A stretch of DNA of 64,000 bases. Source: Salinigranum rubrum (lineage in GTDB: Archaea > Halobacteriota > Halobacteria > Halobacteriales > Haloferacaceae). Below are positions 8,330-60,236 of this stretch, one piece after another. The DNA lies in NCBI RefSeq assembly GCF_002906575.1, contig NZ_CP026309.1:2852001-2916000 (forward strand), in the 5' to 3' direction. Position numbers and translations under genes: made by a program. Below the pieces are notes generated by a model. That model was not told the DNA's origin. It searched no databases and saw only the letters and a list, made by a program, of their open reading frames with translations. Numbering within the stretch: the stretch's first letter is position 1; each line of letters opens with the position of its first letter.

Positions 8330-8481
8330 GGTCGATAGTGATTATCCGTGTACATAAGCGTCGCGTCGGTGCGTCTCGGGCGTGTCAGTGGCCTCGGGCG
8401 GGTGGTGGTGGTGGGTCGTGTGGATAGACTCGGGGAGAGACGGCGACCGATCCAGTTGAGAGACAGGTCCACGTGAGCGGA
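8330..8481. other. Non-coding interval upstream of lone repeat end
   Basis: No convincing gene is seen. The interval is the start side of the HTH gene at 7994-8329 and contains a short GGT tandem tract near 8400. A/T-rich bases just after 8340 (TTATCCGTGTACATAAGC) could hold the promoter of that HTH gene on the minus strand. The rest up to 8684 holds the lone repeat terminus listed separately and otherwise nothing recognisable. Confidence 0.5.
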
Positions 8482-8530
8482 GAAACCGGTTGGGGAAGGT
8501 GAGGCTGCGGATCACCACGCCCGTGTGTCG
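8482..8530 (-). repeat. Lone terminus of the ~250-bp structured repeat
   Basis: Read on the minus strand, this 49-base stretch begins CGACACACGGGCGTGGTGA and continues through CCGCAGCCTC and CCCCAACCGG. It is nearly identical to the left end of the full element at 59811 and close to the ends of the copy at 23351. Only one terminus is present; the hairpin core and opposite end are not recognised nearby. It may be a remnant or a minimal form. Confidence 0.7.
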
Positions 8531-22212: not shown

Positions 22213-23271
22213 ATGCGCGCTGCTGTCCTCACCGAGTACGGAGAGCCGCTGTCGATCCGCTCGCTCGACGACCCGAAGCCGACGCCGGACGGGGTCGTGG
22301 TGGAGGTGGAAGCCTGTGGCATCTGCCGGAGCGACTGGCACGCCTGGCAGGGCCACGGCGAGTGGGCCGACGACCAGGTGCCGCGGGGGCAGGTACTCGG
22401 GCACGAACCCGCCGGAACCGTCGTCGACGCCGGCGACCGCGTATCCGAGTACGCGGTCGGCGACCGGGTCGCCGTCCCGTTCAACCTCGGTGACGGCTCC
22501 TGTCCACGGTGTCTGGCCGGCCACGGGAACCGCTGCGTCGACGGGAGCGCGCTCGGCTTTTCGAGCGACGCTCCCGGCGCGTTCGCCGAACGGGTGCACG
22601 TCCCCCACGCGGACTACAACCTGCTCGCGCTCCCCGACGCGGTGGCGCCGGTGGACGTCGCGGCGCTCGGCTGTCGGTTCATGACGGCCTACCACGCGTT
22701 GGCACATCGGGTGTCGCCGCCGCCGGGGTCGTGGGTCGCCGTCCACGGGTGCGGCGGCGTCGGCCTCTCGGCGCTGTCCGTCGCGCGGGCGGCCGGCCAC
22801 CGGACCGTCGCGGTCGACATCCGCGAGGAGGCGCTCGCGCTCGCCGGCGAGGTGGGCGCCACGGTCACTGTCGACGCCACCGAGACGGACGTCGTGGGCG
22901 AAATCGAGGAGGTAACGGGCGACGGGGCGGACGTCTCGCTCGACGCGCTGGGCCGCGCGGAGACCTGTCGCAACTCCGTCCGCTGTGTCCGCCCCGGCGG
23001 GACGCACGTCCAGGTCGGCCTCACCACCGACGCCGAACGCGGCGAGGTGTCGCTCCCCACCGATTGGATGACCCGCTGGGAGGTGTCGTTCGTCGGCTCC
23101 CGGGGGATGCCGCCGACGCGGTACGACGAACTGTTCGGCCTCGTCGAGAGCGGTGCCGTCTCGCCCGAGACGCTCGTCACGCGCGAGGTGTCGCTGGACG
23201 ACGTCTCCGACAGATTGGCGGCGATGACCGACTACGAGACGGTCGGCGTCGAAGTGGTCACGGAGTTCTGA
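22213..23271 (+). CDS. Zinc-dependent alcohol dehydrogenase
   Basis: A 352-residue medium-chain dehydrogenase/reductase. The catalytic zinc site is visible as Cys37 (ACGICRSDWH) and His64-Glu65 (LGHEPAGTVV); the Rossmann motif is HGCGGVGLSALSVA. The structural zinc lobe has only three of the usual four cysteines (CPRCLAGHGNRC), so structural zinc binding may be weakened. NAD(P)H-linked oxidation of an alcohol or polyol is expected; substrate unclear. The gene is transcribed alone and is followed by a long non-coding region carrying a structured repeat. Confidence 0.9.
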   Translation: MRAAVLTEYGEPLSIRSLDDPKPTPDGVVVEVEACGICRSDWHAWQGHGEWADDQVPRGQVLGHEPAGTVVDAGDRVSEYAVGDRVAVPFNLGDGSCPRCLAGHGNRCVDGSALGFSSDAPGAFAERVHVPHADYNLLALPDAVAPVDVAALGCRFMTAYHALAHRVSPPPGSWVAVHGCGGVGLSALSVARAAGHRTVAVDIREEALALAGEVGATVTVDATETDVVGEIEEVTGDGADVSLDALGRAETCRNSVRCVRPGGTHVQVGLTTDAERGEVSLPTDWMTRWEVSFVGSRGMPPTRYDELFGLVESGAVSPETLVTREVSLDDVSDRLAAMTDYETVGVEVVTEF

Positions 23272-23350
23272 GCGAACGCGGCCGAGAGTGGGTGTAACTC
23301 GGTAAGGTCGTGCAGTTGCGTGAGGTCTCAGGAGTACTGAAACCGGCGGG

Positions 23351-23598
23351 ACACGGGCGCGGTGACCGAAGCCTCACTCCCCACCCGGTCGCTCGCGCAC
23401 AGAGGCGCTCGCGGGCCCTCGCGCGTTCGCTCGCGTATCGCTCGCTCTCACGCGCCACCGCCCTCTTGTAGTGCGGTGGCGCGTGCTGGCGCGACTGTCT
23501 GTCGCGCCGGCACCGCGCGAGGGATGACTGAGTGACCGACTGAAAGGAGGTCACGAAGGAATCGGTTGGGGAGGATTGTGGCCTCATCGCGCCCGTGT
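23351..23598 (+). repeat. Structured ~250-bp repeat element, full copy 1
   Basis: A 248-base element in the gap after the alcohol dehydrogenase gene. Its ends form imperfect terminal inverted repeats: the left starts ACACGGGCGCGGTGA and contains CCTCACTCCCCACCCGG; the right, read in reverse, starts ACACGGGCGCGATGA and contains CCTCCCCAACCGAT. Inside, CCCTCGCGCG (23416-23425) pairs with CGCGCGAGGG (23514-23523). Enclosed are two hairpins: a perfect 13-bp stem (23449-23461 with 23473-23485) and a stem with one G-T pair (23486-23495 with 23501-23510). No convincing gene lies inside. A second full copy is at 59814 and a lone end at 8482. Type unknown: structured RNA or non-autonomous mobile element. 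Confidence 0.75.
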
Positions 23599-23739
23599 AC
23601 TGCGCGATCGCAGTCTCGTTCGCGGTCTCAGTGGTCCTCTCGGTCTCGTCGATGTTCTCGACGCCTGTCCAACCGTTCCTCCGTCACGTATCAGATCACC
23701 GAACGTCGAAAAAGCGAATCGGAACGCGGTCCGTCTGTC

Positions 23740-59696: not shown

Positions 59697-59813
59697 GACT
59701 GTGTGTGGGAGCGCTCGGGGTATGGCTCTTGTGTCGAGGAGGAGATGTTGGTGGCGACGAAGCGGGCGCGTTCGTCGACGACCGCACCGACTGTGAGACG
59801 ACGACCGCACGAC

Positions 59814-60070
59814 ACACGGGCGCGGTGAGCCGCAGCCTCGCACCTCCCCAATCGGGTACTCGCGCACGGAGGCGCGAGTGTCCCCTCGCGCGTTCACTCG
59901 CTCCTTGCAGTCGCTCGTTCTCACGCGCCGAGCGCCACGAGACAGTACGGTGGCGCGTGGCGTCGCGCTCTCTGTGAGCGCGACCCGCGCGCGAGGGATG
60001 AGGCCGCGAGCGAACCCGGTGAGCGAGTGGCCGAATCGGCTGGGGAGGCTCGTGGCTTCAGCGCCCTAGC
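59814..60070 (+). repeat. Structured ~250-bp repeat element, full copy 2
   Basis: A second full copy of the element at 23351. The left end ACACGGGCGCGGTGAG and CCTCCCCAATCGGG faces a right end that reads, in reverse, GGGCGCTGAAGCC then CCTCCCCAGCCGATTC. Inside, CCCTCGCGCG (59883-59892) pairs with CGCGCGAGGG (59988-59997). Hairpins: 59922-59929 with 59952-59959 (CACGCGCC/GGCGCGTG), and a perfect 9-bp stem 59962-59970 with 59976-59984 (GTCGCGCTC/GAGCGCGAC). The last hairpin differs in sequence from copy 1 but keeps its pairing and 5-base loop, a covariation sign. No gene lies inside; the rest of 59697-60236 holds no other recognisable feature. Confidence 0.75.
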
Positions 60071-60236
60071 GGCCGCGCGGTCTTCTCATCGGGACCACTC
60101 GGTGAAACGCGTGGTCTTCTCGTTCCTGCCCGCGTACTGAACGTCGCTCCGGGCCGGTCCGAACGGCTGTCCACCCACACAAGACTCGTAAACGCAAACG
60201 CCGGGATTCAAGTCCGCCGCCGCGAAACCTCGGCGT

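Follow-up and report, generated by a model that had tools for sequence, protein, structure and literature searches.

A dispersed intergenic repeat of Halobacteria with a one-strand fold, present as head-to-head doublets in Salinigranum rubrum and tentatively read as a transposase-free mobile repeat

Abundant REP-type repeats accompanied by a RAYT enzyme are known from bacteria. A passage in PMC3733652 defines REP/REPIN sequences by a 20-40 bp palindrome with a GTAG or CGTC tag, and TnpA-REP subclasses have not been reported in Archaea (PMC6006769). The nearest haloarchaeal kinds are known from Haloquadratum: PATEs, which derive from the ends of IS605-type elements; SMRs, which measure ~80-110 bp and are usually >95% alike; and MITEs, whose ends match a transposon (PMC3119063). 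The repeat that we describe here, of which two copies lie in the window (the whole stretch of 64,000 nucleotides of S. rubrum DNA that was analyzed), resembles REP/REPIN (BIME) sequences in being dispersed, intergenic, chromosomal and non-coding, in occurring as single units and as inverted doublets, and in having imperfect hairpins that give one strand a distinct fold. It is nevertheless not a REP/REPIN member, because the haloarchaeal unit, at ~110-150 bases and with two or three hairpins, exceeds the REP length severalfold, has the conserved linkers GCGAGGGATGA and GAATCGGCTGGGGAGG, shows no GTAG or CGTC tag and comes without a RAYT. The single Y1 transposase of S. rubrum belongs to an ordinary IS200/IS605 element with TnpB (L188), and five unit-rich genomes (G019, G041, G057, G182, G215) are without any Y1 protein, on which grounds a Y1/RAYT partner was rejected; this check of S. 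rubrum and the five genomes revealed no mobilizing enzyme. Like PATEs, the repeat is haloarchaeal and transposase-free, has near-terminal palindromes and shows no target duplication, but its units are abundant where Y1 is absent, and a search with our covariance model R1 placed no unit at or beside L188, the sole S. rubrum insertion sequence compared, so that the ends common with an IS605-type transposon that mark a PATE were not found. With SMRs and MITEs it shares short length, the lack of a transposase and terminal inverted repeats, whereas similarity among its copies is ~75% and it is doublet formation that gives rise to its inverted ends. A strand-specific fold, compensatory changes and conserved single-stranded linkers recall the structured RNAs of Rfam, yet none of the 4227 Rfam families matched at the gathering threshold or at E<=1, in line with the first-pass annotation, which had recognized no known family, and neither promoter nor orientation bias accompanies the units. 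The family motif was not found in the open-access literature searched, where the matches listed were unrelated.

Copy 1 extends over 23346-23603 (no strand assigned), as delimited by inverted repeats, fold, BLAST and copy alignment. The first-pass annotation, which had placed it at 23351-23598, described imperfect terminal inverted repeats, an inner 10-bp stem and two hairpins side by side within that stem. All three were borne out: the outer arms of 20 nt (23346-23365/23584-23603) are 85% complementary and are followed by a further inverted pair, CTCCCCACCCG/CGGTTGGGGAG (23377-23387/23563-23573), the 10-bp stem CCCTCGCGCG/CGCGCGAGGG (23416-23523, pairing 23416-23425 with 23514-23523) is exact, and the adjacent hairpins lie at 23449-23464/23470-23485 and 23483-23495/23501-23513. 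The predicted RNA fold of the 258 bases has a free energy of -160.5 kcal/mol (z -7.5), a stability reached by none of 200 shuffles. Long terminal repeats and a cloverleaf, as annotated, are present, but mainly because one folded unit occurs twice, in head-to-head orientation, and the layout depends on the lineage. The left unit, inverted and of a diverged subtype (23369-23462, minus strand; R1 34.4 bits, E 4e-6), is joined by the 10-bp stem to the right or core unit (23472-23583, plus strand; 107.5 bits, E 2.5e-23), and the heads of both units, GCGCCACCG and CGGTGGCGC, form a central hairpin (23449-23485, plus strand). Along the plus strand of the right unit follow hairpin H1, whose variable stem is supported by fold and permutation test (23483-23513), the linker GCGAGGGATGA (23517-23527), hairpin H2, with 2-bp steps alternating with GA/GA tandems and a 6-bp stem GTGACC/GGTCAC (23528-23559), and the linker GAATCGGTTGGGGAGG, whose family form is GAATCGGCTGGGGAGG (23559-23574).

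Copy 2 (59812-60072, no strand assigned) is likewise a doublet, with a left unit at 59834-59936 (minus strand; R1 28.1 bits, E 1e-4) and a right unit at 59946-60057 (plus strand; 97.7 bits, E 5e-21). Both right units belong to the training set of R1, whereas neither left arm does. The recurrence at 59.81 kb had been called almost unchanged in layout, which holds for the layout, down to the same 10-bp stem, but not for the sequence, since the copies are 75% identical across 177 aligned query bases; the fold of copy 2 is weaker than that of copy 1 (z -3.9) and its outer 3' arm is altered. Gene calls from a simple codon-based caller place copy 1 downstream of an alcohol-dehydrogenase-like gene (22213-23271) and copy 2 upstream of gatD, with a minus-strand gene on its other side; we take both names from reading the sequence by eye. 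Elsewhere in the window, a very weak R1 match (8404-8507, plus strand; 17.5 bits, E 0.04) is possibly a decayed unit or a chance match.

Alignment of the longest S. rubrum copies showed conserved blocks alternating with hairpins whose stems vary between copies. The right half is a unit of ~110 bases with the order GGTGGCGCG, hairpin H1, GCGAGGGATGA, hairpin H2 and GAATCGGCTGGGGAGG, or in its fuller layout GCGGTGGCGCGYG, H1, GCGAGGGATGA, H2, GAATCGGCTGGGGAGG and NGTGTGGC. The linkers GCGAGGGATGA and GAATCGGCTGGGGAGG are near-invariant in a MAFFT alignment of 37 units (A1), from which R1 was built. The same doublet of two subtypes stands at more than 10 unrelated loci; in Salinigranum the doublets are head to head and behave as one block, units of Natrinema can lie tail to tail, single units are common, and the right half alone is a frequent form in other genomes. 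Some doublets (L012, L016, L003, L057) contain an inserted module of ~55 bases, TCTTCGTGAGGGAACGGAACGAACGGCTCGAAGCGGCTCTGCCGCTTCGGTGGTG, a smaller repeat in its own right, and at two loci of Natrinema mahii (L078, L125) the units are adjoined by a separate MITE-like repeat of ~90 bp (GTTGAAACGATTTACACACTGATCGCAACGCTGTC...CTACTATAG) that G210 and other relatives lack at the corresponding position.

The hairpins are kept paired by evolution while their sequences change. RNAalifold applied to A1 missed H1, since hairpins that differ in register fall into different alignment columns, and arm permutation was used in its place. Stability was lost when the 5' arm from one copy was combined with the 3' arm from a different copy. 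Among the S. rubrum units the true arms gave z -9.2 for H1 and z -12.8 for H2; across all 137 units the values were about -28 and about -27, no permutation being as stable, and the hairpin exceeded the stability of dinucleotide shuffles in 128 (H1) and 114 (H2) of the 137. Arms also change together at orthologous sites, as in TCGCGG..CCGCGA against TCACGG..CCGTGA (L202/L260) and GAC..GTC against CTC..GAG (L194/L027). Ten orthologous Haloarcula copies, where a further module with strong covariation (GGACTGAAAGGGGC, a stem and GGGGGCTTTC) comes after the unit, have 18 pairs altered on both sides, mostly in this 3' module; H2 contributes a compensated change (GCGAGCGTAGCGAGC against GCGACCGCAGGGAGC), and covariation within the unit proper comprises a few clear orthologous cases together with the permutation test. 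The lack of conserved pairing that was to refute the first-pass annotation thus did not materialize.

The folded form belongs to one strand. A double-stranded palindrome is expected to carry equal numbers of G.T and A.C, and of A.G and C.T, mismatches. On the plus strand, however, the H1 helices contain 26 G.T against 3 A.C and 103 A.G against 4 C.T, in a count that scored Watson-Crick pairs only and so favored neither strand. In H2, 2-bp steps alternate with GA/GA tandems (199 loops), the cap is C(GNA)G (61 cases), a loop that makes DNA mini-hairpins extraordinarily stable (PMC4686876), and the plus strand is the more stable in 127 of 137. The mismatch data fit RNA and single-stranded DNA alike, and the conserved one-strand fold with compensatory changes that one would ask of a structured non-coding RNA is present.

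Further copies, whose absence would have spoken against the element, were found in S. rubrum and its relatives, and a dispersed repeat family exists. BLAST returned 49 pieces at ~40 places of the S. rubrum genome, every one of them on the 4.25 Mb contig C1, the remaining 0.72 Mb having none, and R1 detected 78 units, those listed all being on the main chromosome (P about 5e-6 for 78). Three congeners have 20, 66 and 20 units, and in a sample of 292 genomes from 78 genera of the class Halobacteria, R1 found the unit in 175 genomes and 46 genera (E<=1e-5), hence across most haloarchaeal genera surveyed, while more than a third of the genera show none. Dozens of units per genome are common among haloarchaea; the number ranges from 0-4 in Haloarcula to the 78 of S. 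rubrum, and presence or absence differs between close species. A pattern scan of ~85,000 species found 78 of 80 among the matches listed in Halobacteria; the other two, on Udaeobacter and Psychromarinibacter contigs, are taken as chance matches. Megaplasmids of Halorussus, Halobaculum, Natrinema and Haloarcula also carry units, with no annotated feature beneath the match in records that have annotation, and phage records and viral contigs gave no unit match.

Units are intergenic and lie in every gene orientation without bias relative to neighboring genes, and their orientation and spacing along contig C1 are random. A role as 3' UTR or terminator tied to gene direction and a replichore-oriented motif were rejected on these respective grounds, as was an adjacent partner gene, since no neighbor recurs beside units and only orthologous loci cluster. 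TATA-like or promoter signals are not enriched upstream of the 137 units, so that with random orientation neither the promoter nor the consistent mRNA position of a non-coding RNA was found. The flanks of S. rubrum doublets (90 bp on each side, for example L001, L002 and L007) switch from G-rich on the left (G 0.41, C 0.21) to C-rich on the right (C 0.41, G 0.23), some of them with short tandem repeats; the switch is absent around units of other genera.

Copies come and go between species. With synteny kept, the gatD site holds the full doublet in S. rubrum, a left-arm remnant in one relative (G003) and nothing in two others (G001, G002), and one Natrinema locus has the unit in four species (G129, G113, G055, G181) and is empty in seven. 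The S. rubrum copies are old, because their median identity is 75% and no near-identical recent copies exist, the best pair reaching 92% over 111 bases. Several copies keep their position across a genus, and retained units generally exceed the adjacent intergenic DNA in conservation, with exceptions such as L313 compared with L317/L315. Comparisons of filled and empty sites disclosed neither a target duplication nor a clean insertion whose junction could be defined; a candidate junction at Natrinema locus C was rejected, intergenic DNA having been replaced there rather than simply interrupted. Of the two marks of a mobile element named in the first-pass annotation, a multi-copy (and here intergenic) family is therefore present, and flanking direct repeats were not seen.

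That annotation had left three readings side by side, a structured RNA, a non-autonomous mobile element and a nucleoid or replication-related site, and this division is partly supported by the results above. Our own, tentative reading, to which we give slightly less than an even chance, is that two units of a transposase-free repeat, dispersed among the intergenic regions of Halobacteria, make up the element; the repeat would be a REP/REPIN-like mosaic without RAYT whose single-stranded form is recognized. A REP-like way of working appears the most likely because dispersal, inverted doublets, intergenic position, a non-coding sequence and an imperfect hairpin specific to one strand all match REP/REPIN. 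The plus strand of the unit, exposed as a single strand in replication, repair or transfer, would be recognized by an enzyme or binding protein, and new copies might arise in trans when intergenic DNA receives the folded strand by copying or joining; dispersal would proceed as in bacterial REP/REPIN, with a different, yet unnamed enzyme. Against this reading stand the failure to find a mobilizing enzyme in the genomes checked, a clean insertion or near-identical recent copies, and the conservation of several copies in position across a genus and in sequence above adjacent intergenic DNA, which pure mobility does not predict; that persisting copies are kept folded suggests some later host use. 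A serious rival, a little less probable in our judgment, is the proposal that Halobacteria have a family of structured non-coding RNAs of which the unit forms the whole or a part. For Haloarcula and some further genera the unit would be the 5' domain of an RNA of ~245 nt whose 3' domain is the GGACTGAAAGGGGC-stem-GGGGGCTTTC module, and a doublet would yield sense RNA from transcription in either direction. Tolerance of G.T far above A.C and genus-wide retention in Haloarcula are what make it serious; the compensated changes at orthologous Haloarcula sites, the conservation of retained units above neighboring DNA and T-runs after the unit at two Haloarcula loci point the same way, whereas the missing promoter signature, the random orientation relative to both neighbors, the widely varying copy number with its gains and losses between close species and the empty Rfam search argue against it.

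That the units are chromosomal DNA sites, serving the nucleoid, condensin, or replication and repair, which extrude hairpins and bind a protein, would agree with the confinement of the listed S. rubrum matches to the main chromosome, with intergenic position and conserved linkers, and with the G-rich to C-rich switch at S. rubrum doublets; we hold it to be improbable, for spacing and orientation are random, megaplasmids carry units, over a third of genera do without them, and a double-stranded cruciform leaves the one-strand mismatch bias unexplained. Chance low complexity, (GAGCGAAC)n in a common GC-rich composition with no real element behind it, can draw on the low-complexity, GC-rich hairpin strands, but is already refuted, with a probability close to nil, by the near-invariant linkers, the permutation and shuffle tests and the restriction of nearly all listed matches to Halobacteria. 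Put more broadly, and again short of an even chance, the transposase-free repeat may represent a class-wide, undescribed nucleic-acid family with a one-strand fold of 2-bp steps, tandem G.A pairs and GNA triloops that spreads and persists without Y1/RAYT, either an archaeal single-strand mobile repeat with its own enzyme or a mobile structured RNA. If true, a haloarchaeal REP counterpart with a strand-specific fold but lacking RAYT would suggest that archaea have a so far unknown activity that processes single-strand DNA or RNA. With the consensus and covariance model the family can be tested directly in Natrinema and Haloarcula, which can be cultured.

The 3' module also occurs alone, on plasmids of Halobacterium DL1, Haloprofundus, Halobaculum roseum, Halorarius and Halorientalis (L365, L366, L367, L371, L372). 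There it lies ~500 bp upstream of a gene for a protein of ~290-299 aa annotated as 'DNA-binding protein', which in the three scanned gave a weak Pfam OB-fold match below the cut-off, and is possibly a structured leader or a plasmid maintenance site.
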